From a virus: a DNA stretch of 64,000 nucleotides. Each line of letters begins with the position of its first letter. Position 1 is the first letter of the stretch. The stretch spans positions 1 to 64,000 of the IMG/VR virus record IMGVR_UViG_3300026484_000333. One strand, 5' to 3'. This document shows, in pieces, positions 1,724-54,284 of this stretch. The notes beneath the pieces were generated by a model. It worked only from the letters and a program-made list of their open reading frames with translations. It did no database searches and was not told the DNA's origin. The position numbers and the translations under genes are program-made.

Positions 1724-3067
1724 TTAATTAAATTTTAATGGTAATTTAAATTGATATCCTTTTGGTAACAAACTATCATCTCTTATAAATTTCACATTTT
1801 TACCTCCTATACCATAAAGTTTATATTTTTCAACTTCTGTTTCAAAGTAATGATTTTTTATAAAATCAAATTGCTCTACAAATTCATTATCAATATTACT
1901 TATAGCAACTTCATAAAAATTTTTATAACACATAGGACATAATTGTTTTTTAAATTTAGAAAAATAATTACCACAACAAACACATTTTCTAAACATACCA
2001 ATTTGTAAATCAGCTATTTGTCTGTGTATCTCTTGATTATTAAAATAATAAATATTTTCTTGAATATATAAATGTTTCAAACCAAATGTTACAATTTCAT
2101 CAGTTATTTTATATTTGATTTTTTGCCCGTTTTCTAATATAAAACCGATAGGCAATAAATTTTCATCAAACCAATAATCTAAAACTTTAATAAAACTTTT
2201 TCTTGTTTTTAATTTTAGGGTTTTAATACCAAAATTATCAATAATTAAATGTTTTTTTATTAAATTTTTACCCAAATATTTTAAATCATAAAAAGTATTA
2301 ATTTCCTTTACAGTAGGATATTTTACATTTACACTATTAGTTTTTTTAAAACGAAAAGTTTTTATTTTTTTGCCGTTTTCAGTTGCAAATAAAGGCACTA
2401 AAACATCTTTTTCGTAAATAAAATAAAAAACTATATCATTTTTAAATTTTAAAGTTTCTTTTAGAAAATTTGTTATTTTTTTATTTTTTAAATTTGAATC
2501 AATTAAGTTTCCTTTTTTTACAAAATTATAAATTTTATATTCGTTTACTCCTTTAGGTAAAGTATAAAAATTAAAAGGATAATTTAATTTATCACCGACG
2601 CCTCTAATCAATTTAATTTTATAATCTTTTAAATCCAAATTTTCAATTTTTAATAAGGCATATAATTCCTCTTTTGTATATAATTTTTTCAAAACACTCA
2701 AAACAAAATCTTCTCCTACATTTAGAAATTTACCACTCAAGAACAATTTAATTATCCAAACTATTTTTTTATTAATACTTTTAGTATATTCTTTTAAAGT
2801 TGTTAAATCACCCTGTTCTATATATGAAAGAATCATACTTAATGCCAAAATCAAATCACCGCCTTCTGTTAATTCCCCTTCTCTTATAAAACTCAAAAAA
2901 TTTTTATTTTTTGGTGTCAGAGAGTAATATGCCGAAATTAATAATTCAAATTCTTTTCTAAATTTATTATAAGCAATTAAAAAAGCATTTTGTCTATTAT
3001 AATAACCTTTTTCAAAATAAAAGTCATTTACTAAATTAAAAAGAATTGTAATATTTTTTGACTTCAT
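1724..3067 (-). CDS. Unrecognised protein with C-terminal zinc ribbon
   Basis: 447 residues from the ATG at 3067; a TTG in frame at 3076 sits directly on the Shine-Dalgarno AAAGGA and is less likely. No family recognised. It is lysine- and aromatic-rich, mostly mixed alpha/beta, and ends with CVCCGN...CPMCYKNF at about residues 362-382, a four-cysteine zinc ribbon. Its start overlaps the end of the sigma-factor gene by 32 nt, so the two are probably translationally coupled. That position would fit a nucleic-acid-binding partner in transcription or replication, but nothing in the sequence proves it. Confidence 0.75.
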   Translation of the reverse strand: MKSKNITILFNLVNDFYFEKGYYNRQNAFLIAYNKFRKEFELLISAYYSLTPKNKNFLSFIREGELTEGGDLILALSMILSYIEQGDLTTLKEYTKSINKKIVWIIKLFLSGKFLNVGEDFVLSVLKKLYTKEELYALLKIENLDLKDYKIKLIRGVGDKLNYPFNFYTLPKGVNEYKIYNFVKKGNLIDSNLKNKKITNFLKETLKFKNDIVFYFIYEKDVLVPLFATENGKKIKTFRFKKTNSVNVKYPTVKEINTFYDLKYLGKNLIKKHLIIDNFGIKTLKLKTRKSFIKVLDYWFDENLLPIGFILENGQKIKYKITDEIVTFGLKHLYIQENIYYFNNQEIHRQIADLQIGMFRKCVCCGNYFSKFKKQLCPMCYKNFYEVAISNIDNEFVEQFDFIKNHYFETEVEKYKLYGIGGKNVKFIRDDSLLPKGYQFKLPLKFN

Positions 3068-3638
3068 CTTTATCAATCCTTTCTATTTTACCATACTGAA
3101 TTGAATTCCTAATAAATATAATACTTTTTACAATAATAAATTTAAGATTACTCAAAGGTATATCATTTATATTTGCAGTTTTTATTAAACCATAACCTTT
3201 TATAAAATAATCGTGTAGAATTTTAAGCTCAAAATTTGTAAAATAATCATTTAATAATTCTCTAATATCTTCTTGTAACATATATTTTTCAATATCTTCT
3301 GCATAATTTTCATTTATATGAAAATCCTCATAATCTTCTGGGGTAGCAGTTAACCACCCTTCTTTATCTTTTAAACTCTTTTTAATAGCACCATATTTAT
3401 TAAGACTATTTTTTGCCACCCAATCAAGCATTCGCCCGTAAACTTTTTTATAGGCAAAACCCATAAAATAATCATTTTTATCACTATCATAATTTTCTTT
3501 TGCTAAAAGATAACCTAAAACTCCCTCTTGAATCAAATCTTCTAAATCAATCCCTGCAAAGCTTTTTTCATATACTTTATACGCCAAACCCTCAATATGT
3601 TTATAATCCTTGTCCGGTATATTATATTTATTCGGCAT
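3036..3638 (-). CDS. Phage sigma-70-family factor (FliA-like)
   Basis: 200 residues from the ATG at 3638, chosen because AAGGAG lies 7 nt upstream; a longer frame to 3674 would run into the preceding gene without a site. Residues 15-80 resemble sigma region 2: DLEDLIQEGVLGYLLAKENY then FAYKKVYGRMLDWV, which parallels the FliA block DLIQ-G-GLLDA...RGAMLD. Residues 145-185 contain a region-4-like helix-turn-helix candidate. It should direct RNA polymerase to phage promoters. The natural target is the YYGATATAW element found before the structural genes, whose CGATA core resembles a sigma-28 -10 element. It is made within the early nucleic-acid operon, as expected for a late-switch factor. Confidence 0.75.
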   Translation of the reverse strand: MPNKYNIPDKDYKHIEGLAYKVYEKSFAGIDLEDLIQEGVLGYLLAKENYDSDKNDYFMGFAYKKVYGRMLDWVAKNSLNKYGAIKKSLKDKEGWLTATPEDYEDFHINENYAEDIEKYMLQEDIRELLNDYFTNFELKILHDYFIKGYGLIKTANINDIPLSNLKFIIVKSIIFIRNSIQYGKIERIDKDEVKKYYNSF

Positions 3639-5316
3639 TTGTAAGCTCCTTAATTTCCAAACTTGAAATACCATTTTCCTTTATAATAGTAAACAAATAA
3701 TCTGCAAAAGTTTCTTCAATTTCGTTATGATGTGTAATAATAAATATAGCTTTATCTTGTTTTAAATAATTTAAAACATTTTTCATAAATTCAATACCCT
3801 CATCGTCCAAAACGCCAAGCAACTCATCAATAACAAGAAAATTAATATTAATACCTATTAACTCTTCTAACGTTTTAATAGTAGCTAATAATAAAAGTAA
3901 ACTAACTCTTGTTTTTTCCCCGGAACTTAACTGATAAAAGGTCTTTTTAACCCCTTTATCTATAAACTTATAATCCAAACTGCCTTTATTTATTTTAATT
4001 TCAAAATCAAAATCAAATGCACTTTTATCTTTAAAAAACTCTACATTAAGTTTTAAAAGGCGCACATAATCTTTTAAAAACTCATTCATAATTACACCTT
4101 TTTTAAATAAAACCAATACCTCTTTATATGCGTCAATTTTTTTACTTAAATAAAGTCGTTTTTCTTTTAATTCTTCTAATTTCTCTTTTAGTTTATCAAT
4201 ATTGTCTTCAAGTTGTTTTTTAAGCTCTTTTTGCTTTATATACTCATCTTTTTTCACTTTTAATTTTTCAATCTGTAATAAAATATCTTTTTTCTTTTGT
4301 TCAAATTTGTTTTTCATTTCCTCGTATTTTTCTTTTAATGTTTCTACTTTATTTTTCTCTTTTTTATAATGTTCTTTAAACTCCTTAAATTCTTTATCCG
4401 CTTTTTTAAATTGTTCTTCATAAATTTTATACTTATCAGTAACAGAATTACCACAAATAGGACAAACCCCTTCTTTTAACTCTTCTTTCAATTTATATAA
4501 ATTTTCCGCCTTAATTTTTAATTCAACTGCCCTTTCTTTTAATTCATCTACTTTTTCTTTTTGAATTAAATACTCTTGTTCTCTTTGCTGAATTATTAAA
4601 ACCATTTCACTTGTTTCTAATTTATATAATTGTTCCTGTAATTTGTTTATCTCTTCCTCATAATTTATTTCTTCAATTTCTTCAAGTTTATCAAATAAAG
4701 ATAAATTATCTTGAATAGAATTGTATTGAACTAACAATAAATCATATTCCTTTTTCAATTCTCTTATTTGTTTTTGCACCGCCTCTTGATAGGCTAAAAC
4801 TCTTTCAACATTAAAAAATCTATAAACAATATTGTTTTTACCTGTAATTTCAATAATACTATCAAGAGAAGTTTGATTAAGATAAGTAAGAGAAGTAATT
4901 ACATCAAAATCATAATTAATAATTTCAGTTTTAATTAAATTTAATTGGTTTGTAATACCTTTGGGGCTTATAAATTCTCCGTTTTTGTAAATGTCAATTG
5001 ACATTTTATTTCTATCATTAATTATTGTAAACTCATTTTTACATTTTTTAAAATCAAGAGAAATAACATAAGGTTTTTTTGTATAAACATTATTAACAGA
5101 TTGAATGTTCCCTTTTTGGTCTTTAAGATTTTTATTAAAAAGACATTGATAAATTGCATTAAAAATACTTGTTTTACCCGCCCCGTTGCTTACTAATGTA
5201 TCACTTTTTATATCTTTATTAACACCTTTAACAAGATAAACCCCGTTTTTAAATTCAAACTCAACTTGCCCCAATGAATAAAAATTTTCTATCTTAATTT
5301 TCTTAAATTCATACAT
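3628..5316 (-). CDS. SbcC/Rad50-like recombination ATPase (gp46-like)
   Basis: 562 residues from the ATG at 5316, preceded by AAGGAG 7 nt upstream. Order: Walker A SNGAGKTS at about 43-50, a long lysine/glutamate-rich coiled coil, a zinc-hook CPIC near 287, a second coiled coil, the ABC signature LSSGEKTR near 470 and Walker B FLVIDELLGVLDDE. It is shorter than cellular SbcC (about 1000 residues) and matches the size of T4 gp46. With the SbcD-like nuclease two genes upstream it should form a DNA end-processing complex for recombination-dependent replication. It overlaps the sigma gene by 11 nt and the small gene upstream by 8 nt. Confidence 0.93.
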   Translation of the reverse strand: MYEFKKIKIENFYSLGQVEFEFKNGVYLVKGVNKDIKSDTLVSNGAGKTSIFNAIYQCLFNKNLKDQKGNIQSVNNVYTKKPYVISLDFKKCKNEFTIINDRNKMSIDIYKNGEFISPKGITNQLNLIKTEIINYDFDVITSLTYLNQTSLDSIIEITGKNNIVYRFFNVERVLAYQEAVQKQIRELKKEYDLLLVQYNSIQDNLSLFDKLEEIEEINYEEEINKLQEQLYKLETSEMVLIIQQREQEYLIQKEKVDELKERAVELKIKAENLYKLKEELKEGVCPICGNSVTDKYKIYEEQFKKADKEFKEFKEHYKKEKNKVETLKEKYEEMKNKFEQKKKDILLQIEKLKVKKDEYIKQKELKKQLEDNIDKLKEKLEELKEKRLYLSKKIDAYKEVLVLFKKGVIMNEFLKDYVRLLKLNVEFFKDKSAFDFDFEIKINKGSLDYKFIDKGVKKTFYQLSSGEKTRVSLLLLLATIKTLEELIGININFLVIDELLGVLDDEGIEFMKNVLNYLKQDKAIFIITHHNEIEETFADYLFTIIKENGISSLEIKELTNAE

Positions 5317-5542
5317 TGTGAAACTCCTTAAATAAAGAAACAAGCTTTTTGTGTTCAGTTTTTACTTCTTCATAATTTTTTGAAGCAATAGTTATTGTAT
5401 TGCCTCCTCTTAAATAAACATCAAAATAAAAAGATTGTTCTAATAAAACTACTCCTAAATGCCTTTTCTCATTTATCTTAAAAATATCTGAAAAACCTTG
5501 TATATCTTCTTTATTTATATAATAATCCCCAATTTTAACCAT
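5309..5542 (-). CDS. Small protein between SbcD- and SbcC-like genes
   Basis: 77 residues, no family recognised; a mostly beta-strand pattern with a conserved-looking VYLRGGNTITIASK hairpin. Its ATG overlaps the SbcD-like stop as TAATG and its end overlaps the SbcC-like start by 8 nt, so all three are co-translated. The position suggests an accessory of the end-processing complex. Confidence 0.75.
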   Translation of the reverse strand: MVKIGDYYINKEDIQGFSDIFKINEKRHLGVVLLEQSFYFDVYLRGGNTITIASKNYEEVKTEHKKLVSLFKEFHNV

Positions 5543-6543
5543 TATAAATCCTTTTCAATTAATTCAAGCTCATTAATAATTTCTTTTTTAAGTTCTTCAT
5601 CTTCCACTATTAAATGTTTTTTTACAATATCAGTTATAACTATTTGTTTATCATTATTTTTAATTTCTGAAATAACTTCTTTTTTTTCATTTTCAATCTC
5701 ATTAATATTTATAAAGGAATATCTTACAATTTTATCTCTATTATTTTCAATAAACTCAATTAGTTTGTCTGTTTTAATAGCTGAAACAACTTTAAAAACA
5801 TCTTTTTTATTCTGTTCTAAAATTAACTTTAATTTATCAATATCTTTTTCTCCTCTTATTGTAAATTTTACTAAATTAGGTAAATTTAATTGTTTCCATT
5901 TTACTTCGTAGTTTTTGTTCTCTACATTTAAAACTATATACCCAAAATCTTCTCTATCATCAAAAACAATTGAATAAGGACTTGAAGTATATTCTATATT
6001 AACAGCAGGTTTGTAATGTTGATGAATATCAGAAAGAATAGTGTAGTCAAAAGTCTTACTTACATAAACATTATCTATTTCATCAGTCATATAAGCATTA
6101 ACAGCACTTCTGTAATGAGAAAATAAAATATTAATATCAGTAAAAAACTCATTTTTAAGTTTATAAATTTCAAAAATTTTGTGATGAGAAACAAACCAAA
6201 GAGTTATATCATTTGTAATCCTCAAAAAACCTTTACCAACATATTCAAAATCTGTTTGAGGTAAATAATCATATAAACATTCATTTTTTGCCAAATCTTC
6301 GTGATTACCGCTAATTAAAACTATTTTATTTTTTACAAATTTCCTAATTCTACCAAGCCACTCATAGAATTTTTTTAATTCATACCAGCTTGGGTTTGCT
6401 TTATCTAAAATATCTCCATTTAAAATTAAAATATCAGGATTTTCTTTTTTTATAACTTGAACTAAATTGAAAAACCTACGTTCATAAAAATCATTAGGCT
6501 CTTTAATTTTTAAATGAATATCACCAAAAACAACTATTTTCAT
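5542..6543 (-). CDS. SbcD/Mre11-like nuclease (gp47-like)
   Basis: 333 residues. Metallophosphoesterase motifs of the Mre11/SbcD group are visible: GDIHLK at residues 7-12, NGDILDKA near 42, SGNHEDL near 80, FSHYR near 141 and SDIHQHY near 171, followed by the YTSSPYSIVF strand typical of the family. It is the nuclease partner of the SbcC-like ATPase, trimming DNA ends during recombination and replication. Start supported by AAAGGAAATT before the ATG and by an extended -10 promoter 20-30 nt upstream. First gene of the recombination/sigma operon. Confidence 0.93.
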   Translation of the reverse strand: MKIVVFGDIHLKIKEPNDFYERRFFNLVQVIKKENPDILILNGDILDKANPSWYELKKFYEWLGRIRKFVKNKIVLISGNHEDLAKNECLYDYLPQTDFEYVGKGFLRITNDITLWFVSHHKIFEIYKLKNEFFTDINILFSHYRSAVNAYMTDEIDNVYVSKTFDYTILSDIHQHYKPAVNIEYTSSPYSIVFDDREDFGYIVLNVENKNYEVKWKQLNLPNLVKFTIRGEKDIDKLKLILEQNKKDVFKVVSAIKTDKLIEFIENNRDKIVRYSFININEIENEKKEVISEIKNNDKQIVITDIVKKHLIVEDEELKKEIINELELIEKDL

Positions 6544-6606: not shown

Positions 6607-7413
6607 TTAATAGGAAGTTTCCAAATCGTCATCATCCTCTTGCTCTGCAACTTCTTTTTCCGTTTCACTTGCTTTTGTTGGAGCTTTTGTTTTTACACCT
6701 GTTGATTCAACCCACTCATCCCATTTTTTAATAAGAGGAATTGTATCTTTAATTTTTGCTTGAAGCTCTTTTGCTTTTAAAGGCTCAATTTTTTCAATAT
6801 CATAAACCCAAATTGCTCTACCGTTTGTTACCTCTTTTCTTGTTTTTACATAAACATAGTATTTTAGAGGTAAATGGTCATCTCCTATCAACTCTTTTAC
6901 TTGCTCCCAAAATTTCATATAATTTACACCACGCAAATAAATCAAATAAGGATTTTCTTTTCCGTCTTCCTCAATTGTTACAAGTAAGATTTGATTGAAT
7001 GTTAATTTAACGCCCTTATCTTTTAAAGCACCTACTTTTTCGCCTGTTTTAGTTTCAACTACTTCTTTGCCTTCCATAATATTTGTAAATACAGGAGTTA
7101 TATGGCTATAACCATTTTTGGTAATATCATAAGCACTGTATTGGTAACCAACTGCAATAATTCTCATTTTAACAGGTTGTTTAAACACTTTTCCTTGTTT
7201 TTTAACTTCAAGGGTTTTTCTATCAATTTCCCAACCCGTAATAATTTCACCTTTTTTTACACCTTCATTGATAAGCACATCGTCTTTGTCATAGTTGATT
7301 TTTACAACATCAAATGGTAATCCACCACTTGTTTGCTCACCGCCTGTATTTTTTGCAATTAATCTTGCTTCTTCAGGGCTAACACCCATTGCTACTAATT
7401 CTTCGTAAGTCAT
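6607..7413 (-). CDS. Putative single-stranded-DNA-binding protein
   Basis: 268 residues, no exact family recognised. The middle is beta-rich, as in an OB-type fold, and the C-terminus ends in an acidic tail (EQEDDDDLETSY) after a flexible linker rich in K, T and E. That layout, abundance-type expression from a perfect host promoter, and a place between recombination and nucleotide genes are typical of phage ssDNA-binding proteins. The N-terminus (YEELVAMGVSPEEARLIAKN) looks like a short helical UBA-like or HTH segment. Function is inferred from architecture and context, not from a signature motif. Confidence 0.5.
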   Translation of the reverse strand: MTYEELVAMGVSPEEARLIAKNTGGEQTSGGLPFDVVKINYDKDDVLINEGVKKGEIITGWEIDRKTLEVKKQGKVFKQPVKMRIIAVGYQYSAYDITKNGYSHITPVFTNIMEGKEVVETKTGEKVGALKDKGVKLTFNQILLVTIEEDGKENPYLIYLRGVNYMKFWEQVKELIGDDHLPLKYYVYVKTRKEVTNGRAIWVYDIEKIEPLKAKELQAKIKDTIPLIKKWDEWVESTGVKTKAPTKASETEKEVAEQEDDDDLETSY

Positions 7414-16710: not shown

Positions 16711-17951
16711 ATCAACCCTTTAATAGGATTTACCGAACTCAAAAGCACATTATAATTATTATCATTATTATCTCTGTCTATAGAAGAATTAGATTTTTTC
16801 ATAACTTCAATTGCAGGAACAACTATTTGCCCTTTTTCATATAAAATTAATCCGTCAATTTCAATCATATTTGGCGGAATTATATTTTTAACATCTAGTA
16901 TGTATGCTTTAGTCTCGTCTTCAATTAAAAATACTTTGTTAAACTCTAATGTTTTTGGTATTTTTTCAACTTTTATTATACTAGTTCTTCCCGTTTTAAT
17001 AATTGTTTTTGTTGCTTCAGACCATAAAGGGAAATAATTTAAAAATCTTTCTGTTAGTATGTTAACATTCTCTAAAAATTTATGCTTATATAATTCCAAG
17101 GAAGTAAAAGAGGCATTAAAATTTATTTTTGGATTTTCCATTGTTAAATAAGAAGTTTCAACACCATTAATACTTTTAAAAAGTAAAGTATTAAAAAAGT
17201 AAGTTTCTGAATAAGTATTTTTATCAGGATACAAAACAAAACTGTTTGCCATAGGCATTCTTTTCAAATATATTTGGTACTTAATATAAAATTCTTTACC
17301 TCCAACAGAAACTTTAATTCCAACCCACCAACCATCTACAAATTGATATAAACTATTAACATCTACTACTAATTTAAAGCATAATTTGCCTCCCGCTGGA
17401 ATGACATCTCCCACTTCAATATCTTCAAATTCAATACCAAATAAAGAGTTTAATTCTAAAATTTCTACATCCTCGTTATAACTAGAAATTAAACAATAAT
17501 CAATTATAATTTTATTATAAACCGATGGATTAAAATAAAAAAAGGTAGTGGCATTTTCCCAGAAAGTATTTTGAGAATTATTATAAACCAACCAAAGTAG
17601 TTTATCAGTAAAAACTTTTGCTTTTCCTTCTGTACATTTACCTTCATTTTTACTAATACCAAAATTTTGTAAAAGAAACTTGTTGCCACTGAAGATTATA
17701 GGTTTTGTTTTTTGGGGAAAAACAATATCTTCAATAAAATAATTAACATAATAAGAACAACCTTGCTGAATACTTTTATTATTACAGAAAACAGTATTTT
17801 GGTTATACGCAGAAAAAGCTTTTAAGACTAAATAAGAAACATTTTCATTAATCTGCTCTGTTTCATTATTATAAACTCTTGCTTTTATGGGAACATAATT
17901 CTTATCTAGTATAGAGGCTTGTTCTTGGACATATTTATAAATTGTTCCCAT
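16707..17951 (-). CDS. Tail-associated protein, paralogue of 30095-31084
   Basis: 414 residues of no recognised family. The first 100 residues (MGTIYKYVQEQASI..., then VFPQKTKP) align with the product of 30095-31084 (MATIYKYIQEQTNI..., IIFPKKSKP), so the two are paralogues. Both are beta-rich and contain a conserved CN-rich segment. It overlaps the next gene by 4 nt. Likely a virion surface or tail-tip protein. Confidence 0.65.
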   Translation of the reverse strand: MGTIYKYVQEQASILDKNYVPIKARVYNNETEQINENVSYLVLKAFSAYNQNTVFCNNKSIQQGCSYYVNYFIEDIVFPQKTKPIIFSGNKFLLQNFGISKNEGKCTEGKAKVFTDKLLWLVYNNSQNTFWENATTFFYFNPSVYNKIIIDYCLISSYNEDVEILELNSLFGIEFEDIEVGDVIPAGGKLCFKLVVDVNSLYQFVDGWWVGIKVSVGGKEFYIKYQIYLKRMPMANSFVLYPDKNTYSETYFFNTLLFKSINGVETSYLTMENPKINFNASFTSLELYKHKFLENVNILTERFLNYFPLWSEATKTIIKTGRTSIIKVEKIPKTLEFNKVFLIEDETKAYILDVKNIIPPNMIEIDGLILYEKGQIVVPAIEVMKKSNSSIDRDNNDNNYNVLLSSVNPIKGLI

Positions 17952-17961
17952 AAACTAAATC

Positions 17962-18957
17962 CTAATATTTTTCTGAAATAATTTCAAAATCCTCTTCAGG
18001 AATTACTAAAGCATAATTGTATTTACTATAAAGGTCATTGACTTCAGGGAAAATATAACAAAGTTTTTGATTCCCTGTTTCATCTTGAATATTGACTACA
18101 TTAGGATGATAATAACTACTATAAGAATAATTTTCATAGCTATATCCTATAAATTTCCACTCATTGACAGAGGAATCTAAATTAGTATCAACAAAAAATG
18201 CAATAGGACTTGCACTTATACTTCCATTTGGTTGTGGATAATGCCTAAAACCAACTGATTTATCTACATCAAGTTTGTGTTTTCTTGTAAAAATACCCTC
18301 ATCAGTATCTCCCCACCAATAACCATCATAAAAGACAAGAGCTTTATCTGATGTTTCGTGAAAACCATTTGTTATATACATCCCTCCATTATCTTTATCA
18401 AGAGAATTGAAAATTTGAAATTTAAAAGGTTTATTAAAATAAACATAATCTTTTTTTTGAAAAAGAGTAGCTTCAAAATAATAAGGAAAAGTAAAACTAA
18501 TACTAAAATCAGTAATTAATAAATTAACTAAAAAGTTACTATAAATCTTTGGTTGAGGATTATAAGGAAAATTAACCATATTAGTTTTAAATGTTTCACA
18601 GTTAGTTCCATCACTAATTGCACCTTCTTGTTCACATAATTCTTTAGTATTGTCATAACTTTTACAAGGCATAAACTGTAAATACTGTTCATCATCACCA
18701 CTATCATAATAATATTTAAAAACCAAATGTGGCTCATAATTTAATCCGCTAATCTTATTCTTGGCAACCAATAAACTAATTCCGTTTCTTCCCCACTTAT
18801 CTGTTGCAGTTTGTGTATCAACTATCTCCCAAGCATTTGTATTATAATTAAATGCTTTATATAATTCATTTAATATGCTCCAATTTTCTTCTGGATTAGA
18901 TACTACACTATCTAACCCTATTGTCATATCTAGACTTTTAAAAAATTGTACCTTCAT
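17962..18957 (-). CDS. Probable minor tail protein
   Basis: 331 residues, rich in Y, W, F and G, with segments such as FYDGYWWGDTDEG and ASPIAFFVDTN that recall phage minor tail proteins with an aromatic jelly-roll-like fold. No exact family recognised. It is 3 nt after the 630-residue protein and 10 nt before the paralogous tail protein, all in one operon. Confidence 0.6.
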   Translation of the reverse strand: MKVQFFKSLDMTIGLDSVVSNPEENWSILNELYKAFNYNTNAWEIVDTQTATDKWGRNGISLLVAKNKISGLNYEPHLVFKYYYDSGDDEQYLQFMPCKSYDNTKELCEQEGAISDGTNCETFKTNMVNFPYNPQPKIYSNFLVNLLITDFSISFTFPYYFEATLFQKKDYVYFNKPFKFQIFNSLDKDNGGMYITNGFHETSDKALVFYDGYWWGDTDEGIFTRKHKLDVDKSVGFRHYPQPNGSISASPIAFFVDTNLDSSVNEWKFIGYSYENYSYSSYYHPNVVNIQDETGNQKLCYIFPEVNDLYSKYNYALVIPEEDFEIISEKY

Positions 18958-18960
18958 CTT

Positions 18961-20853
18961 TTACTCCTCATTTAACTCTATAAGATAATTATATGGTGCT
19001 TTTATGTGGTTATCTGGAATAACTATATGTTTTACACCATCAATATAAACCTCTGTTTCAGGTTGAATATCCGTGAAATTAACTAAATACATCCATTTTG
19101 GACTACCAAAATTTATAACCTTCAAATCATCAGCAATATTCTTATATTTATTTACTTTAATAACAGAAACACTTTGATTATCGTTTTTAATCTCTTGCCA
19201 ATTACCCGACAAGGCACCATCAGAAACATAATTATTAACCCAAGAAGTTCCATTCCAAAAACTTGTATTTTTACTATACATTAAACCAAATCTAAAATCA
19301 TCATTATTTATATCATAAGCATTATTTCCTCCCCAACCTAAAGCAAAAGGTAAATCATAGGCTTTATCTCCTTCTCCCCAACCAAAATAAAATATTTGAT
19401 AAGTTGGGTCATCAACAATAGTTGGGTCATATTTTTTTAATACAACTAAAATATCTGCTCCGTTAGTAATATACCAATATTTTTCAATCATTTCATCTTG
19501 CTTTCCCCAATAAAATTGAGGCATATAAAAAGACATATTATCAATAAAAGGAATATCAGCATTATATTCCTCTATATAATTCCACTTATCAATACTAATA
19601 TCAAAAACACTTGAATTTAAAGACTGTATATAATCTTCTATTTTACTTAACAGTTCAATAGTATTATTAAAAGCTAACTCACCATCTTTTAATTGTAAAA
19701 AACCGTTTTTATTTGTTTGAAGAATTACATTTTTAATTAATCCTGTATTATTTAAAATAGAAACATAAAAATCATTTAATTCTTTTGGTGGAAAACCGTT
19801 TTCATTAAAACTATTAATTTCTTCTTCTGTTAAAATTCTATCCCAAATATAATAACCACTTGCATAAACAGGATTATCAATCTGTTTTCCAAATAATCCC
19901 TCAAAATTCTTCCATTTATCATTTTGTAAATTATCAACAACTTTTACACCATCAACATATACATTTAATTTTCCTTCTGTATTATTAATAGTAATAACCA
20001 ATGTAACAATACCCCTGCCTTCTACTATATCCATAATATTACATAGTATCACATCATCAAAATATAAATTACCATTGTTTAAATCTGTAAAAATAGACAT
20101 TGTTGTTTCATTTGTATAATAATCTGATGTATAATTATAAATAAACATTTTATTAATTTTACCTGAACAACGAGCTTTTACTAATTCAGAAAATTGAGCT
20201 GTTAAAACAATTGAAACATCACCATTTATCTTATGAGAGGAAGAAGATATTGAATTACACACAATTCTACTATTTAAATAAGGAGCAGTTCTTCCGTATG
20301 CATTATAATTCCCTCCTCCACAACCTGTGTTTCCTCCTCCTTCAAAAAATACTTTATCTTTCTTTTTAGCAAATCGATGTATATTTCCTCCAAACGAGAT
20401 AATATAAGTAAAATCCACATCATACCCATAACTTCCTTGTATCCAAGCTTTATTGTTTTCAATGGTATTTTCTAAATAATTTGCCAAAACCCTCATAGGT
20501 TTTGCACTACCCTTTTTCACATCAATTGTAACAATATCTCCGTCTTGCCAAGCATTATCTCCTTGTCTAATTGTAAAGCTAATAATGCCATTATCATAAG
20601 CTTGGTCAATTTGTGCATCATCTTTTGCCCCACTAACACTGCCTGTTACTTTAAAAACATCGTTAGTACCATCGTATCTTAATTCCCAAGTTTCTGTTTG
20701 AACTGTATTTTGATTAAAAGTAATATTTTCAATATTTCCATCACCTTGTGCTAAATCATAACTTGTTTCCATACTAACAGGGTTACTTAAAAATTCTACT
20801 AAATTATCAATAGCCTCTTTTACTGTCTTCTTGCACTCAACTCTATATGCCAT
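18961..20853 (-). CDS. Multidomain minor tail protein with LamG-like domain
   Basis: 630 residues. Residues 30-110 carry a module (TETWEL...VTGSVSGAKDDA...DNGIISFTI...GDIVTIDV) also found in the tail tube (28722-30047) and in 31084-32805. Residues 130-350 look like a LamG/concanavalin jelly roll ending with YIWDRILTEEEI. The C-terminus has a YWYITNGADILVVLKK...YQIFYFGWG pattern that I recall from siphophage minor tail proteins. It probably binds carbohydrate or the host surface. A late element lies 34 nt upstream. Confidence 0.65.
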   Translation of the reverse strand: MAYRVECKKTVKEAIDNLVEFLSNPVSMETSYDLAQGDGNIENITFNQNTVQTETWELRYDGTNDVFKVTGSVSGAKDDAQIDQAYDNGIISFTIRQGDNAWQDGDIVTIDVKKGSAKPMRVLANYLENTIENNKAWIQGSYGYDVDFTYIISFGGNIHRFAKKKDKVFFEGGGNTGCGGGNYNAYGRTAPYLNSRIVCNSISSSSHKINGDVSIVLTAQFSELVKARCSGKINKMFIYNYTSDYYTNETTMSIFTDLNNGNLYFDDVILCNIMDIVEGRGIVTLVITINNTEGKLNVYVDGVKVVDNLQNDKWKNFEGLFGKQIDNPVYASGYYIWDRILTEEEINSFNENGFPPKELNDFYVSILNNTGLIKNVILQTNKNGFLQLKDGELAFNNTIELLSKIEDYIQSLNSSVFDISIDKWNYIEEYNADIPFIDNMSFYMPQFYWGKQDEMIEKYWYITNGADILVVLKKYDPTIVDDPTYQIFYFGWGEGDKAYDLPFALGWGGNNAYDINNDDFRFGLMYSKNTSFWNGTSWVNNYVSDGALSGNWQEIKNDNQSVSVIKVNKYKNIADDLKVINFGSPKWMYLVNFTDIQPETEVYIDGVKHIVIPDNHIKAPYNYLIELNEE

Positions 20854-20886
20854 TAATTAACCTTTTTTAATGAATTTTACTATAAT

Positions 20887-20895
20887 TTATATCGG
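20887..20895 (-). promoter_or_regulatory. Late promoter element, CCGATATAA
   Basis: Minus-strand CCGATATAA, 34 nt before the ATG at 20853. It lies within one arm of a hairpin (20894-20903 pairing with 20913-20922) made at the end of the tape-measure gene. Confidence 0.65.
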
Positions 20896-20913
20896 AAAGT
20901 AAGTCTCGCCTAC

Positions 20914-23900
20914 TTACCTTCCTACAACATTCTTAATTATTTCTCTACCACTTCTACTTGTTAAATAATCTTCAAAAGCTTTAGTATCTACACTGTTTAA
21001 TATTACAATTTCTGGTGTAGGAGCGGTTACGTTCACTTGTGGTGTTGTGTTACCACTTGCTTTAATTGCTTTAACCTCTTCTTTGCTTAATACATACTCA
21101 CCTTTTTGTAGAATAGCTGGAATTTCATCATCTTTCAAACCACCCATTTGTTTATTGGCAGTCTTTCTATCAACATAACCTCCTGTATGATATTTTTGAG
21201 CTTTTATAACTGCTACTCTCATCATACCTGTAGCAATAGCCAACCCAGCCGCCACGAAGTTTATTGGAGGAGGCAAGGTTGCCATAGCTTGTTGTGCAGA
21301 AGTATAAGTGTCTATAATGGCTTGGGCAACTCTCATAGCTTTATAAACCCTAAACCATTTTTTCTGTTTTAACAGTCCTGCCCTCATCATATCATCTAAA
21401 GCACTTGCAAATTGTCCTATATAACCACTTACAGCACTTAAAGAGGCATTAAGACTTGCTGTCTCCATTGCCTTTCTTTTTTCAACTTCAGCTTTAATAA
21501 TTTCAGTCTTCAACTGTTCAATCTGTTTTAGACCTTCAATTTCAGACATTCTTCCAGCCATAACTGCTTGTTGTATTTCAAGTTCTTTTGCTTGAATTAA
21601 AGCTTTTTTCTCATCATAATACTGTTTTATCAACTCAATCTGTTGTTGATATTGTTGATAAGCATTTATAGCTCCTGCAGTTCCGCTATCCAACTGTCCT
21701 GCTTTTATACCTTCTTGGACTTGTTGTTGTTTTTGTTTTAATTCCTTCTCTTTAACACCAATATATGCACTTATATTAGCAAAATAGGCATCTAATTTTG
21801 CTTTATCTTGTTCAGTGTTAAAATTAACAATACTTAATTTCTGTCTATTTTCATACATTTTATTTTGAATATCAAATAAAATATTATTTGCAGGATTGTT
21901 CATAGATTTTGTTTCTCTATTCATTTCAGCAATTATTGCTAACATCTTCTGTTTCAATTTTACTTCTTTTATTTCCGCTTTTAAAGTACTTTTCTTTAAT
22001 TCTTCTTCTTTTTGATACAGACCTTTTATTTCGTTTTCTAATTGTTTTTTTCTTTCTAATAATTGAGTTCTTTGTTCTTCATCTTTATAACCTGTCGTTC
22101 TTAAGGCTTTTATTTGCATAATCAAATTATAATATTCTCTTTCTTTTGTAACTCTTTGATTATAATAAGTTTTATATAAACTATCTAATCTTTGTACTTC
22201 TTTTTGGGCTTCAAGCAAATCATCTTTAATAGGTAATCTGCCTGTTTGACTGATTTGTTTTAGTTCATTAAAAGACTGTCTTAATTTATCTGCAAGTTTT
22301 GTTATCTCGCTTTCAACAATCCCAAAATCTTTAAAATTAAAAATATCTTTTATCTGATAATCTACACTCTTAACAGCTATTGGTTGTTTATTTGTTTTTG
22401 GCAATAAAGAATTAGTGCTTTCTATTCTTGCTTTTAAAATACCCTCTAAATTAGCAAAATCTTTATCTAATCCGCTTAAATAAGCTTTTAATGACTGATA
22501 AACATTTTTATCCAAACTATCTTTCATTTTATCTAAAAGCAATTTAAGCTTCAAAAATTCTGCTTCTAATTTTACAACATCTTTAGGATTAGTTGCATTT
22601 TTCATCATATTTTTAAATTTATCAAGTTCTCTATTTAAATCTTGAGGTAAAACATCTTTAGAAATTTTTGCTTGTTTAAAACTTATTTCCATTGATTTTA
22701 CTAAACCGTCCATTGTATTTTTAAAGGCTTTGTCTATTTCTTGATTTAGATTTCTACTTAAATCAGAAACATCTAACCCTTGTTTTAGAAAATATTTTAT
22801 CTTTTCTGCTATTTGTTGAAATCTTTGTACTTCTTCTTTTGAAACAATTTTTATTAAACCTTTTTTTGTTTTTTCTTTCATATTTTTTATACTAACACCA
22901 AATTTATTCTCAAAATCTTTTATATCTCTATTAAGTTGTTCTAACGGATTGACATCAAATTCCATTAGATTTAGATTTTGTTTCATTTTTTCTATTTCTT
23001 GGTTAAGAGTTTTACTTTGAGTAACAGCTTTTGAGAAATCAGGCTGTAAATTTTCCCAAGTCACATTTCCCTTCACAGCTTGAGTAACCACAGGAGTTTT
23101 TTCCTGATAAGGCTCAAACACACTAATAGGTTTTTGTGTTTGATTTTTCGGTTTATAATTAGCAAATTGTTTTAATTTTTCTAATTGCTTTTCTAATAAG
23201 TCTATTTGTTTAGAAATTTCTTCTGAATTAGTTTTATTATATTCAATTTTTAATCTCTCAAGTTTGGCACTTAATAGCTGGTATTCTATATATTTTTGTG
23301 CTTTATCTATCTCTTCTTGTTTTTGTTTTACAACTTGTTCTTGCTGACCTACAATTTTTTTATAAACTTCTAATTGTTGTTCTATTTTATTTAACTCATT
23401 AGTCAGAATCTTAACTCTTTCTTGGTCATTATTTACCAATGCTTCTGCTAACTGTTTTTTAAATTGTTGTTTTTTGGCTATCAAACTATCATATTGTGAA
23501 ACCAAACTATTTAATTTTTGTTGTTCAGCTAAAAGACCATTGCTTCTAGCAATTTCTTCATTTACATTTTTAACAGTCATAAATAATTTTACAAAAGCCC
23601 CAACAGCCAAAGTTGCCAATAAAACATAAGGATTTCTCAAGGCAATCGCTCCTATTGCTGTTAAAGCACTCATTATTTTCTTTAATACTCCTACTAACCC
23701 TAAACCTGCCACACTTGCACTACTAAATATACTTACTAAATTTTTTATACCCCTAAAAACAACCAAACCGCCTAAAGTAACCCCTATACCTTTTATTATA
23801 GTCCAAATATTACTTAAATCCTTTTGAATTTGTGGCATTGCATTATTAATTGCATTAATCCATTCAGTTGTTTTAGTAATCATTCTTTCTAATACAGGCA

Positions 23901-26835: not shown

Positions 26836-26870
26836 TATAAAATCCTTTGAAACTTATTATTACTAATAGA

Positions 26871-26878
26871 TATATCAG
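26871..26878 (-). promoter_or_regulatory. Late promoter element, CTGATATA
   Basis: Minus-strand CTGATATA, 36 nt before the tape-measure ATG, and 37 nt downstream of 52-bp repeat copy 2. Confidence 0.6.
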
Positions 26879-27574: not shown

Positions 27575-27600
27575 AAAAACTCCTTATTATTCTTTATAAA

Positions 27601-27608
27601 TATATCAG
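27601..27608 (-). promoter_or_regulatory. Late promoter element, CTGATATA
   Basis: Minus-strand CTGATATA, 27 nt before the ATG at 27574. The TGA inside it is also the stop codon of the preceding gene (27605). Confidence 0.55.
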
Positions 27609-30080: not shown

Positions 30081-30089
30081 TTATATCGG
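30081..30089 (-). promoter_or_regulatory. Late promoter element, CCGATATAA
   Basis: Minus-strand CCGATATAA, 34 nt before the tail-tube ATG. No -35 hexamer is evident. Confidence 0.65.
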
Positions 30090-34713: not shown

Positions 34714-34743
34714 ATCAAAACTCCTATAATAAGTATTTTAATA

Positions 34744-34751
34744 TATATCAG
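34744..34751 (-). promoter_or_regulatory. Late promoter element, CTGATATA
   Basis: Minus-strand CTGATATA, 31 nt before the ATG at 34713. Confidence 0.6.
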
Positions 34752-34937: not shown

Positions 34938-35228
34938 TCACATTAATTCATTTATAAATTTTTCAAATTCTTTTTCTTTTTCAGAAGAATTGTTATTTGT
35001 GATTTTAAATGAATCTATTATGTCATTTTCATAAGTCAACAAACTACCTCTATATATAATAACCCCATTTACTTGATGTCTATTAAAATCCGGAAATGAT
35101 TTTATCTTATCACCAATATCTTCTATTCTAATATTTCTAAACGCGTCAGCCATCATATTACTAATTTCTAAACCAAATATTTCTTCTTCTTTTAACATTT
35201 CTAAAGTAGGATTTCTTAATAAATCCAT
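34938..35228 (-). CDS. Unrecognised 96-residue protein in head module
   Basis: Acidic, with helix-rich N-terminus (LEMLKEEEIFGLEISNMMADAF) and a QVNGVIIYRG strand. SD AGGAAGGA precedes the ATG. No family recognised. It stands alone between capsid and connector genes without a late element, so it may be an inserted accessory gene. Confidence 0.5.
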   Translation of the reverse strand: MDLLRNPTLEMLKEEEIFGLEISNMMADAFRNIRIEDIGDKIKSFPDFNRHQVNGVIIYRGSLLTYENDIIDSFKITNNNSSEKEKEFEKFINELM

Positions 35229-35431
35229 ATCGTATCCTTCCTCATTATAGTATCATCCATATGCTTTACAGAATCTATATAGTTTTTGATTATCATATCT
35301 TCGTCAAATAGCACTTCTATAATGTGAAAATAAAATATTAATATTAGCATCATATTATTAGTTTCATTCAAAGATTCTTTATAAAACTTTGGACAGTCTC
35401 GAAGAATAATATAAAGAGAAAAATCACTCAT
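35216..35431 (-). CDS. Doubtful 71-residue reading frame after the capsid gene
   Basis: The ATG at 35431 lies inside the capsid terminator hairpin and has no Shine-Dalgarno. Overlaps the 96-residue gene by 13 nt. The composition is hydrophobic and Met-rich, unlike its neighbours. It could be a remnant or chance frame; kept only because it fills a 200-bp gap. Confidence 0.25.
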   Translation of the reverse strand: MSDFSLYIILRDCPKFYKESLNETNNMMLILIFYFHIIEVLFDEDMIIKNYIDSVKHMDDTIMRKDTIWIY

Positions 35432-35447
35432 TAGAGTGAGTGATTTT
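35420..35447 (-). terminator. Hairpin terminator at the end of the major capsid gene
   Basis: AAAATCACTCA and TGAGTGATTTT make an 11-bp stem with a 6-nt loop; the capsid stop codon begins at the stem base. On the minus strand a TTTTTCTC tract follows. It should end or reduce the abundant capsid transcript. Confidence 0.75.
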
Positions 35448-36654
35448 AGTTAGAAGCTACATTAACAATTGCAGATACAGGAGTTGAGTTCACACAAAGT
35501 TTTTTGAAGTCAATATCTCTATATCCAACATATAGAGTTGTTGAACTTACAGCTTTTCTTTCAGTTTCGATTCCAATGTTTCCTCTGTCTGCAACACCAA
35601 AGTATGCTTTGTTAACAAGAAGAACTGCTGTTTTATCTCCGTTTGTTTCGTCAACATCACCATTAGCGTCAAGATTGTCAGGGATGTATTCAGTTACAAT
35701 AATAGGCATACCAAATAGTTTTCCGATTTCACCTACCATAATAGTTGCTTTAGCACCATATTTGTCAACAGTTAAAACTTCAGGTAATTCAAGCATTTGA
35801 TATGCTACATTTACAGGAGCTACAATAGCAAGGTCACTTAAATTAATACCATAAACGCCAAGTAGTCTTCTTGCTTGTGCAATTAGTGAAGCAGTTACTG
35901 CATTTCCACCTGCGTCAACTTTGTTACCAGCACCTTTTGCATATTTTAAAAGACCGTCAAATGCTTTTTTAACATCGTTAACGTCAGCAATAGCTGTGTC
36001 ACCCATTACAAGTGCATCCTCTGTTGCTCTTGCAAGTGATTTTACAAGTTCTTGTCTTACAAGCTGTGTAATCGCCGTTACCATTTCTTGGTCAGCTTGG
36101 TCAGTTACTGCAAGTAGTGTTTTAAATCTTGAAGTTGCAAAACTTACTTTTGCACCATTAATTGCACTTTCAATTGCGTCATCACCCGGAGCAATTAAAT
36201 ATGCTTTTGCTTTGTCCGTTTTTGCTGGAATAGAAAATGTGCTTCTATTTTCAGGCATTCTAAATCTTTGGAATAATCCCTCAACTTTAAGGTCAAGTTC
36301 TAGTTCTTCCATTACCCTGTTAGAAAACTCTTCTGCCAACCAACTTGCAATGTCTGCTGGTTTAATTGCTTTTTCAACAACAGGAGCGATTTCTTTAAAT
36401 TCTGCAAAACTATCGGCAGGTCTTCCAAGAAGTTTTGACTTAATATGCAAATCAACTGCTTTTTCTCTTGCTTTTGCTACTTCTTTGTCATCAACAGATT
36501 TTTCTTCAAATTGTGTTTTTCTTTCAGTCCATTTGTCTTCAAATTCTTTTTTAAGTTCTTCTACTTTTTTTTCTGATTCAGTTTTTGTACTGTCAAGCTC
36601 TTTTTTAAGCTCTTCTACTTGTTTTTGTAGAGTTGAAATTACTTCAATTCCCAT
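35446..36654 (-). CDS. Major capsid protein, HK97 fold
   Basis: 402 residues from the ATG at 36654, preferred over one at 36660 that sits too close to the SD AAAGGA. Residues 1-95 are a lysine/glutamate-rich coiled coil typical of the scaffolding delta domain that the protease removes; the remainder has HK97 capsid features (FSIPAKTDKAKAYLIAPGDD, SRFKTLLAVTDQADQEMV, LARATEDALVMGD). It assembles the icosahedral head. Late element 33 nt upstream and a terminator at its end. Confidence 0.93.
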   Translation of the reverse strand: MGIEVISTLQKQVEELKKELDSTKTESEKKVEELKKEFEDKWTERKTQFEEKSVDDKEVAKAREKAVDLHIKSKLLGRPADSFAEFKEIAPVVEKAIKPADIASWLAEEFSNRVMEELELDLKVEGLFQRFRMPENRSTFSIPAKTDKAKAYLIAPGDDAIESAINGAKVSFATSRFKTLLAVTDQADQEMVTAITQLVRQELVKSLARATEDALVMGDTAIADVNDVKKAFDGLLKYAKGAGNKVDAGGNAVTASLIAQARRLLGVYGINLSDLAIVAPVNVAYQMLELPEVLTVDKYGAKATIMVGEIGKLFGMPIIVTEYIPDNLDANGDVDETNGDKTAVLLVNKAYFGVADRGNIGIETERKAVSSTTLYVGYRDIDFKKLCVNSTPVSAIVNVASN

Positions 36655-36686: not shown

Positions 36687-36695
36687 TTATATCGG
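36687..36695 (-). promoter_or_regulatory. Late promoter element, CCGATATAA, for the capsid gene
   Basis: Minus-strand CCGATATAA, 33 nt before the ATG at 36654. A TAAA lies 16 nt before its CGATAT, the closest match here to a sigma-28-type spacing. The TAA is also the stop of the upstream 59-residue gene. Confidence 0.7.
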
Positions 36696-39071: not shown

Positions 39072-39080
39072 TTATATCGG
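39072..39080 (-). promoter_or_regulatory. Late promoter element, CCGATATAA
   Basis: Minus-strand CCGATATAA, 27 nt before the protease ATG. A TTAAAAG lies 8-14 nt upstream of it, too near for a -35. Confidence 0.65.
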
Positions 39081-40439: not shown

Positions 40440-40469
40440 TTGTTTTCCTTTTTAATTTATTATATAACA

Positions 40470-40477
40470 TATATCAG
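40470..40477 (-). promoter_or_regulatory. Late promoter element, CTGATATA, for the portal gene
   Basis: Minus-strand CTGATATA, 31 nt before the portal ATG at 40439. Confidence 0.65.
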
Positions 40478-40534: not shown

Positions 40535-40654
40535 GAGCTGGAAGCTCAATTGAAGTTTATACAGAAATAAACTTCAATTGAACGCCCATCTCAGGCGTTC
40601 TATATTTAACACCCACATCAGGTGTTATAAATTGAACGCCCACATCAGGCGTTC
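40535..40654 (-). ncRNA. Candidate structured RNA with three tandem 27-nt-period hairpins
   Basis: Three 21-nt hairpins at 40634-40654, 40607-40627 and 40580-40600, exactly 27 nt apart. Each has a 7-bp stem and a 7-nt loop (TGATGTG, TGATGTG, TGAGATG on the minus strand). Stems are GAACGCC/GGCGTTC in the outer two and TAACACC/GGTGTTA in the middle one: two base pairs change on both sides, which is compensatory. Next come a 14-bp stem (40547-40560 with 40567-40580) and a 5-bp stem (40535-40547). The late element at 40660-40668 would start transcription at about the first hairpin base. No reading frame fits. It could instead be a DNA site such as pac; RNA is inferred. Confidence 0.6.
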
Positions 40655-40659
40655 TACTG

Positions 40660-40668
40660 TTATATCGG
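40660..40668 (-). promoter_or_regulatory. Late promoter element, CCGATATAA, facing the hairpin array
   Basis: Minus-strand CCGATATAA directly after the stop of the gene at 40673. Unlike other copies, no ATG follows within 40 nt; the first thing downstream is the hairpin array. Confidence 0.65.
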
Positions 40669-41731: not shown

Positions 41732-43603
41732 TTATATAAGTTTCATTAATTTGTAGTTTCCTACAAATTTGTTTTCATTATCTTCTGCATCTGTAGTAAA
41801 TATCGGAAAAGTCCTTATGCTAATAACCGTTGACAACCATTGACTAAAAAATACATTTCCTTCATCATCTTTTCTGCCTAGCCTAACATAATATAAACCA
41901 CAATCATATAAACCTGAAATTTTATTTTTTGTCATTTTTCCAATCGGAACTAAACGTCCTTGTGCTTCTTTATTTTTTGGAATATGCTTACTATTTGGAG
42001 ATTTAACATCAGACGCTCTCCATAGCTCAATCCAATAATTATCAGGTAATACTTCTTCTTTTGGAAATTCAGCTATATAACCAAAATTAGCACTTGCTTT
42101 TTCTACGTCTATTGTTATATTTGAATTATCCACACGCTTATAGTGGCACATATAACGTCCGAAATCCATATAATTATTTAATAAATCAACAGAATCCAAA
42201 TAGAATCTATTGCCCTGACTATCGGTGATAAATTTGGTAATTAATTTTGACCTTACCATTACATCAGTACTGCCTTCTTTTCTATATAAAACAATTTTAT
42301 AATCACCTAAAGCAATCGGCTCAACATATTCAATTTTGATAACATCATCGTCATTTAAACTTGTATTAAATTTCAAATGTGTTGTATAATCGCTGTTTAA
42401 ACTTTGGACTTGGTCGCCAAAATCCCAATCTGTATATTCAGCATCATTTACCCAAACTCTAAACAAATTCTTATCTTTATAAACATAGCGTTTTAAGAAC
42501 AACAAACTTTTACCTGAAATATTACTGCCTTTTCTATAAATAAAAACACGATTTAAACTGTCGGCAGTAGCATTAAAACTAAAAAGCTCTCCCGTACTAA
42601 TATCAACACCTATAACATAAGAATTTTCTGGTTTTTGTTTAGGTGTTTTTCCATAACTATAAAAAATAGGATTATCTTTTTTAAAATCAAATTTATCTTT
42701 AGTTACAGACATATAAGCTTCAATTGAGGCAAAATCATCACCTAATGCTACATCAAATTGTGCTGTATCTCCATAAGCACCGACTGCCAATTGCTTATCA
42801 CTAAAGTTACCGCCTTTTCCAGCCAAATAGGTTTGATAAAAACTTGAAGGATACATTGTTAGAAAGACTTGGTCTTTATATGGGTCAGTTGAAGTAGAGG
42901 CAGTAAAACTTGCCCCAGCATAATTATCAGAATTATTTGTATTTGTTACATTTACTTCAACAATTCCATATACATTTTTACTAATTTGAATTTTTTGAAC
43001 ATCGTTTGCAGTTTGGTCGCTTGGGGTTAAAGTTTTACCTATTCCTGTATCTGCATCTTCTTTTTGCCAATAGTTCTTTCCATCAATTATATCACACAAA
43101 TCTTTTGGCGTATATCTTCTAACTTCATTAACATCACAAGGGTGGGTTTTTTCTTCATCAGATATTTTATGAATATTAACTCCCAAATAAAACCAATTTG
43201 GATTGCCTTCTTCATCGCTTCTTGCTTCATACAAACCAGCTTTTTTTCTATTAAATAAAACCCAAGTTCCTGTTGCTTTTTGAACTAACCATTGTTCTCC
43301 AAGATGGTCGGCTGGGTCTGGTAAATCAGCATAAGTTTCAACTTCGCCTTCCCAACCGTCAAAATTAGAACTGCCTCCTCCTAAATTAACCTCAACCCAA
43401 TCAACAAGATTATCCTGTAATTGCCAAAATTTTTGGTCTTCTTGGTTATAAACAACCATTCCCGCTTTTCTTCTCAAATCAGGAATGTTATCACGCTCTT
43501 CAGTTGTGGCTACAACACGAAACCCGCCTTCTAAATGGATATCCTTAATTAAAGGAAAATCCCCATTAGGATAAAATAAACCCGTTATTTTTATACCAGC
43601 CAT
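41732..43603 (-). CDS. Large virion fibre-like protein
   Basis: 623 residues. The N-terminal region has a fibre-entry pattern (YNQEDQKFWQLQDNLVDWVEVNLGGGS) found in many phage fibres. The last 270 residues match 40673-41722, so one has arisen from the other. It overlaps the 23-residue upstream gene as TAATG. Located between portal/hairpin array and TerL; probable head or tail fibre. Confidence 0.65.
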   Translation of the reverse strand: MAGIKITGLFYPNGDFPLIKDIHLEGGFRVVATTEERDNIPDLRRKAGMVVYNQEDQKFWQLQDNLVDWVEVNLGGGSSNFDGWEGEVETYADLPDPADHLGEQWLVQKATGTWVLFNRKKAGLYEARSDEEGNPNWFYLGVNIHKISDEEKTHPCDVNEVRRYTPKDLCDIIDGKNYWQKEDADTGIGKTLTPSDQTANDVQKIQISKNVYGIVEVNVTNTNNSDNYAGASFTASTSTDPYKDQVFLTMYPSSFYQTYLAGKGGNFSDKQLAVGAYGDTAQFDVALGDDFASIEAYMSVTKDKFDFKKDNPIFYSYGKTPKQKPENSYVIGVDISTGELFSFNATADSLNRVFIYRKGSNISGKSLLFLKRYVYKDKNLFRVWVNDAEYTDWDFGDQVQSLNSDYTTHLKFNTSLNDDDVIKIEYVEPIALGDYKIVLYRKEGSTDVMVRSKLITKFITDSQGNRFYLDSVDLLNNYMDFGRYMCHYKRVDNSNITIDVEKASANFGYIAEFPKEEVLPDNYWIELWRASDVKSPNSKHIPKNKEAQGRLVPIGKMTKNKISGLYDCGLYYVRLGRKDDEGNVFFSQWLSTVISIRTFPIFTTDAEDNENKFVGNYKLMKLI

Positions 43604-44503: not shown

Positions 44504-44529
44504 TTTCTTCCTTTATAAGCATTTATACA

Positions 44530-44537
44530 TATATCAG
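44530..44537 (-). promoter_or_regulatory. Late promoter element, CTGATATA
   Basis: Minus-strand CTGATATA, 27 nt before the ATG at 44503 and just after the TerL stop. Confidence 0.6.
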
Positions 44538-45934: not shown

Positions 45935-45943
45935 TTATATCAG
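45935..45943 (-). promoter_or_regulatory. Late promoter element, CTGATATAA, for TerL
   Basis: Minus-strand CTGATATAA, 35 nt before the TerL ATG. Confidence 0.65.
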
Positions 45944-49211: not shown

Positions 49212-49239
49212 TTTTTACCTTTTTATATAATATTACTTA

Positions 49240-49247
49240 TATATCGA
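49240..49247 (-). promoter_or_regulatory. Late promoter element, TCGATATA
   Basis: Minus-strand TCGATATA, 29 nt before the ATG at 49211. Confidence 0.55.
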
Positions 49248-53960: not shown

Positions 53961-53991
53961 TTTTATTTTCTCCTTCTTATAGCTTTACTTA

Positions 53992-53999
53992 TATATCAG
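53992..53999 (-). promoter_or_regulatory. Late promoter element, CTGATATA, for the fibre operon
   Basis: Minus-strand CTGATATA, 32 nt before the ATG at 53960. Confidence 0.65.
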
Positions 54000-54208: not shown

Positions 54209-54216
54209 CTGATATA
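54209..54216 (+). promoter_or_regulatory. Plus-strand CTGATATA element
   Basis: 23 nt downstream of repeat copy 4, in the same direction, but 123 nt before the next ATG; the only late-type element seen on the plus strand. Confidence 0.4.
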
Positions 54217-54284
54217 TAAATAAAGTTATAAAAATAAACAAATTCATAATTTATGTTTTATGTTTTATAATTTATATTTTAATC

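Follow-up and report, generated by a model that had tools for sequence, protein, structure and literature searches.

The window analysed here comprises bases 1 to 64,000 of a virus record totalling 83,931 bp. On its minus strand, positions 3036 to 3638 encode a phage sigma factor of 200 aa, made of a region 2 (about residues 15-90) followed by a degenerate, region-4-like C-terminus. Directly upstream of this gene lies that of an SbcC/gp46-like ATPase (3628..5316, minus strand; Pfam AAA_23, 2e-13). Another conserved neighbour (5542..6543, minus strand; Pfam Metallophos, 8e-14) encodes an SbcD/gp47-like metallophosphoesterase, and a TATAAT is found 20 nt before its start. The 3' end of the sigma gene is overlapped by the gene of a ligase-fold-like protein of 447 aa (1724..3067, minus strand), characterised by alignment, motif scan and Foldseek and present in 6 of the 7 long contigs described below. 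This protein carries a C-terminal clamp-binding-like motif, Q[LMF]xLP[FL], and a zinc-ribbon CxxC pair. It was considered as a T4 gp33-like coactivator and rejected because its structure model, itself weak, matches ATP-dependent DNA ligases in Foldseek, so that ligase-clamp binding accounts better for the C-terminal motif. A distinct, standard ATP-dependent ligase is encoded at positions 65924-67288 of the record. For the 268-aa product of the gene at 6607-7413 (minus strand), the idea of a sliding clamp was likewise discarded, as the DEDxIxF closing its acidic C-terminus points rather to a single-stranded DNA binding protein. This protein, found in 7 of the 7 long contigs with acidic C-termini such as DEDEIPF and DIDEDDIQF and without any library match, is likely to be such a predicted single-stranded DNA binding protein. 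No clamp or gp33 homologue was recognised in the window phage.

The sigma factor was identified by several profile and structure searches. It matches Pfam Sigma70_r2 at 9.3e-07 with 29 bits against a gathering score of 24, which places it in the sigma-70 family, and its PHROG assignment is phrog_351, sigma factor. The matches listed by Foldseek for its predicted structure are sigma factors, the model being of moderate quality (pLDDT 74) with a poorly modelled C-terminal half. With a profile built from 7 orthologues, the best PDB match is FliA (9wsf, 1.7e-12; 6pmi, 4e-11), to which the region-2 and region-4 parts both align. FliA is also the best NCBIfam family, yet the scores of 46.9 and 42.8 bits fall far below the curated cut-offs of 201 and 189.6. 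The initial annotation had described the factor as FliA-like; this description holds as a resemblance and fails as a family membership, and judged by the curated cut-offs the protein is not a FliA.

Residues 81 and 84 of FliA (Asp and Arg, region 2.4) reportedly read the CG of the -10 sequence GCCGATAA, while Arg91 in domain 3 is said to read its upstream GC. E. coli FliA Asp81 aligns with D72 in the window sigma and with an aspartate in 7 out of 7 phage sigmas. In place of Arg84 these sigmas have Ala or Gly, and their domain 3 is short or missing. The C-terminal half of the window sigma appears degenerate and helical, both in the alignment and in the structure model. No match at E<=0.01 was retrieved by tblastn in 50,697 phage records, and homology to the phiEco32 sigma was thus not found.

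Relatives of the window phage were collected by capsid and portal protein searches: IMG/VR yielded about 19 of them, and a bacterial MAG contained one contig. In cultivated phages, portal identity was only about 22-26% among the best-listed records. A sigma orthologue was detected in all 7 contigs of at least 69 kb (the window record, G001, G002, G006, G012, G013 and G014), always directly downstream of the SbcC/gp46-like gene and in the same cluster. Shorter contigs lack the sigma gene. One of them, G018 (57.6 kb), carries the cluster up to SbcD, and sigma is missing there because the contig ends just before its expected place. Elsewhere in these genomes, the DNA polymerase gene (L011 8656-11632, corresponding to positions 72656-75632 of the record) consists of two ORFs in both the window phage and G001 and is whole in G002. 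The two ORFs are separated by about 230 bp, which may be a small intron and contain GATATAGTCC within a stretch rich in GC and in hairpins; an Rfam scan of the phage, including this insert, gave nothing above the gathering threshold.

A short element, C[CT]GATATA[AT], precedes 12 virion or packaging genes of the window phage by 25-34 nt. The initial annotation had reported it 27-36 nt before twelve ATGs; it was found at each of them, with a measured gap close to that range. All these sites lie on the minus strand. The form CCGATATAA is found at 20887..20895 (33 nt before 20853), at 30081..30089 (33 nt before 30047, encoding a tail protein with a minor tail PHROG match), at 36687..36695 (32 nt before 36654, major head protein) and at 39072..39080 (26 nt before 39045, head maturation protease). 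The form CTGATATAT is found at 26870..26878 (34 nt before 26835, tape measure), 27600..27608 (25 nt before 27574), 34743..34751 (29 nt before 34713), 40469..40477 (29 nt before 40439, portal), 44529..44537 (25 nt before 44503) and 53991..53999 (30 nt before 53960). The large terminase gene, starting at 45900, is preceded by CTGATATAA (45935..45943, 34 nt) and the gene starting at 49211, with a weak holin match, by TCGATATAT (49239..49247, 27 nt). One more site, a CCGATATAA at 40660..40668 on the minus strand, precedes no ORF and stands, as had been noted, before an array of tandem hairpins.

Counted over the whole window, YYGATATAW occurs 25 times versus 8.8 +/- 2.8 in dinucleotide shuffles, none of the 100 shuffles reaching 25. 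Eleven of the remaining 12 matches are located within genes or distant from any same-strand start. The twelfth, TTGATATAA at 48867-48875, lies 36 nt before 48830 and can also be read as an extended sigma-70 -10 (TGATATAAT), a TGNTATAAT sequence. An intergenic CTGATATAT on the plus strand (54209..54217), 121 nt before 54339, is a possible additional site of doubtful value. Within windows of 22-50 nt before gene starts, the YGATATA core was found 14 times versus 0.6 expected from the genome remainder (p=8e-14, an optimistic value like the other p-values for spelling patterns, which were derived from the genomes in which they were counted). The reversed-sequence control gave 1 versus 0.6. The motif precedes 13 of the 37 genes of the structural (late) block and none of the 78 other genes (p=7e-8), in agreement with its reported absence before replication genes. 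TATAAT is also enriched before starts in this genome (24 versus 5.4) and is equally common in both gene blocks. No late element was detected on the sigma strand within 4 kb upstream of the sigma gene in any of the 7 long contigs (that of G001 ending before 4 kb), which fits an expression of sigma from host-type promoters.

To describe the element, we compared the sites of the window phage with those of its two closest relatives (G000-G002; 33 sites in all). An EM motif search on all upstream regions had degenerated to AT-rich patterns and an ortholog-anchored comparison was used instead. The only informative columns are C, Y, G, A, T, A, T, A and the final W. The 45 nt upstream show no conservation besides A/T richness, with no -35, and thus without a conserved FliA-type -35 (TAAAGTTT, spaced 11 nt from GCCGATAA). 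Downstream, 26 of 27 distinct sites have a purine as the sixth base past the 9-mer. A purine also occupies this position at 30/34, 32/33 and 20/20 sites of three other groups of relatives, and it is not enriched there in a small group of phages using ACGATTTT (8/13 sites). This purine is predicted to be the transcript start, since it stands where a -10 element would place it.

At the orthologous late genes of the relatives, the element is found at the same place with the CGA core kept and a clade-specific spelling. The spelling enriched before starts is YGATATA in the window phage, G001, G002, G007-G009, G015 and L088-L091 (for instance, 13 versus 0.3 expected in G001 and 10 versus 0.5 in G002), ACGATWAT in G003 and G011-G014, and ACGATTTT in G016 and G017. 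In G006, CGA(TAGC/AACA/CAC) was counted 15 times versus 0.1 expected (p=4e-23); several spellings (GCGATAGC, GCGACAC, CGAAACA) precede different genes of this phage (L033-L036) and are possibly promoter subclasses. Foreign spellings are generally not enriched, the exception being a minor YGATATA signal in G011 (3 versus 0.2) besides the 6 occurrences of its own spelling. On the portal tree, the four spelling groups need three changes, the minimum possible. This specificity across clades, which is the stronger argument, and the start-site purine do not rest on the optimistic p-values.

In some relatives, the upstream region is not entirely devoid of signal. A C exactly 18 nt upstream of the element was observed at 24 of 34 sites in the YGATATA phages outside the window sub-clade (p=1.3e-11 before correction for the several hundred columns tested), concentrated in the related phages L089-L091 (15/15) and in G007-G008 (7/9). 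It is weak in the ACGATWAT phages (13/33, p=8e-4) and absent from the sites of G010, G015, G016 and G017. Thus the initial statement that the sites share no -35 is valid for the window phage and its two closest relatives and does not extend to those relatives with the lone C. Such -35-like upstream conservation is missing in the window sub-clade and in two other small groups. Region 4 looks intact in the sigmas of the ACGATWAT phages, which score 55-73 bits with a full-length sigma model including this region, and degenerate in the window sigma, which scores 42 bits, just under the cut-off. These observations suggest that upstream recognition was lost together with the decay of region 4 in the window sub-clade; this is only a lead, as no sigma gene is present on the contigs of those phages in which the C is strongest.

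Taken with the neighbourhood and profile data, these patterns make it highly probable that the gene at 3036-3638 encodes a phage late sigma using minimal -10 promoters (CYGATATAW), in the manner of T4 gp55 or of the phiEco32 sigma. The pairing of the sigma with the late promoters, already put forward in the initial annotation, is supported by the presence of sigma in all 7 long contigs, the clade-wise spellings, the purine at a fixed distance and the FliA profile match. We infer that the sigma reads these sites, that it binds the host core polymerase and that expression follows a temporal order. A sigma of the FliA-like branch would be made together with the replication genes from host-type (TATAAT) promoters. 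It would join the host core RNA polymerase and direct it to minimal promoters consisting of one -10 element with a C/T-G-A core, with the purine 6 nt farther on as the transcript start, some 20-30 nt ahead of the start codons. The genes served would be those for the virion, packaging and probably lysis, and in the window sub-clade no -35 contact would be needed. Other phage factors for late transcription may be encoded among the many unnamed genes.

The elements could alternatively be read by the host flagellar sigma-28 (FliA), the phage sigma doing something else. The -10 element of sigma-28 is indeed of the CGAT type attributed to it in the initial annotation: it is CGATwt in C. jejuni, located 6-8 nt upstream of mapped starts (PMC3847290), and GCCGATAA in E. 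coli (PMC2859248). In addition, one portal-bearing contig of the family (L088, 5,244 bp) was binned with a MAG labelled Desulfurellales, a Campylobacterota order. This contig bears the family genes for terminase, portal and protease; ACGATATAC and CCGATATAA occur there some 24-28 nt ahead of starts. This MAG is however a weak pointer to the host, since the portal was found in no other of 25 genomes searched in the phylum of the MAG. Moreover, the phage elements keep the G and A of the CGA core without the upstream GC of GCCGATAA, no TAAA-type -35 exists at the sigma-28 spacing in the window sub-clade, the spelling varies by phage clade up to CGAAACA and GCGACAC, and every long contig keeps a phage sigma. 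We thus regard a reading by host sigma-28 as improbable.

Slightly less credit is given to the possibility that the element serves another phage factor as a site in DNA or RNA (an activator, RNA processing or a translation signal) and is not a -10. The element is always found near a start codon and many phage genes are unnamed, as such a site would allow. On the other hand, its spacing to the start codon varies from 25 to 34 nt while the distance to the purine is fixed, one element precedes a non-coding hairpin array and not an ORF, and the base fixed 18 nt upstream in some relatives has a -35-like spacing. It is very improbable that the elements represent extended -10 promoters of the ordinary host sigma-70 type (TGnTATAAT): CTGATATAW does contain TGATATAW, near TGNTATAAT, and the TATAAT enriched before starts accompanies the element at 4 late genes, but the late sites do not conserve the final T of TATAAT (10 A, 8 C, 9 T, 6 G at this column), CCG or TCG replaces CTG at 11/33 sites, and the same genes in related phages carry ACGATTAT, ACGATTTT or GCGATAGC without any TATAAT-like sequence. 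A phage RNA polymerase was also considered as the reader and set aside, none being recognised among the large genes searched with Pfam, in a genome where many genes are unnamed.

Returning to the late sigma reading, we propose that, within the phage family, the sigma diversified jointly with its -10 element. A more specific scenario, to which we give a little more credence than to its negation, is that one orthologous sigma changed its -10 specificity at least three times (YGATATA, ACGATWAT, ACGATTTT, CGA(T/A/C)A(G/C)), every late promoter of each phage matching. The window sub-clade would also have lost upstream recognition while region 4 decayed, some relatives still using the single C 18 nt upstream. 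In the ACGATTTT group and in the YGATATA group beyond G000-G002, no contig bears the sigma gene and the pairing of sigma and spelling is assumed. If true, the family would offer a natural series for reading the sigma-DNA code, in which the set predicts, in a testable manner, which sigma residues read which bases. It would bear on how a regulator changes target when a dozen promoters must follow and on how -35 recognition can be lost, and it offers a simple means of annotating the late genes of the family and their transcript starts.

Late sigmas that use short promoters have been described in a few model phages, each investigated separately. In T4, the late sigma gene lies near the gp46/gp47-type recombination genes, the late promoter sequence is TATAAATA and late transcription requires gp33 and the gp45 clamp. 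The window sigma similarly adjoins gp46/gp47-type recombination genes, whereas its family uses a CGA core in place of TATAAATA, no equivalents of gp33 or of the gp45 clamp were found in the window phage, and no sequence relation between the two sigmas emerged. A T4-like clamp-coupled mechanism was rejected, given that the protein overlapping sigma, with its clamp-binding-like motif, resembles a DNA ligase. As stated in the initial annotation, T4 gp55 is a late-gene sigma whose promoters have a -10 only and no -35 (PMC2988020), and the late promoters of the window sub-clade are also -10-only. Phages phiEco32 and 7-11 encode a sigma and bear a TAATGTATA-type motif before structural genes, the early genes being transcribed from host promoters, and phiEco32-related phages have related but shifted motifs (PMC4331800). 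The window family too combines a phage sigma with a short motif before structural genes that shifts between clades. It differs from phiEco32 by an unrelated motif, by a window sigma unmatched in the phage records and by the host shut-off anti-sigma, which was not identified in the window phage.

The SPO1-type phages (Herelleviridae) also possess late-gene sigma factors, gp34/gp33. The SPO1 late -10 is GATATT and its late promoters have a -35, unlike those of the window sub-clade. A clade-II sigma of the family gave a weak match (3e-3) to the sigma of Bacillus phage Moonbeam, too weak for membership. FliA/sigma-28 itself is the closest profile and shares the CGAT-core -10 and the conserved aligned Asp81; the phage sigma is however shorter, with about 200 aa versus about 240-254 aa, and the window promoters lack the TAAAGTTT -35 and the conserved upstream GC of GCCGATAA. 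By these comparisons, a phage late sigma with minimal -10 promoters would belong to a known kind (T4 gp55, phiEco32, SPO1), here in a FliA-like form found only in uncultivated phages (the IMG/VR relatives, after tblastn of the 50,697 phage records). What is new here is the series of orthologous sigmas with matching changes of promoter spelling, all in uncultivated phages.

Some features of individual sites were also recorded. Positions 2 and 9 of the element covary in the window phage, giving either CCGATATAA or CTGATATAT (sites 20887 to 53999), and this choice is kept at the orthologous genes of G001 and G002. The two forms may mark two promoter strengths. The pairing of CC..A and CT..T at these positions was rejected as a general rule, as relatives have CCGATATAT.

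In G001 (L012-L016), a cassette of ~50 nt, TATTATAATAGA...TTTTACTTTTATTTTATACTGATATAW, carries a TATAAT-like box together with the late element and is repeated before four late genes (upstream of 17339-23263, 35207-35485, 41906-43264 and 44810-45121), as if these promoters had spread by copying. Finally, the array that follows the CCGATATAA site at 40660 consists of tandem hairpins GAACGCC-TGATGT-GGGCGTTC and variants (40535-40656, minus strand), strongly folded as RNA with an energy of -54.2 kcal/mol and a z of -8.9. G001 and G002 also have the site and a comparable hairpin sequence, in which the changes are paired (GAACACC...GGGTGTTC), and the array resembles a structured non-coding RNA transcribed from a predicted late promoter.
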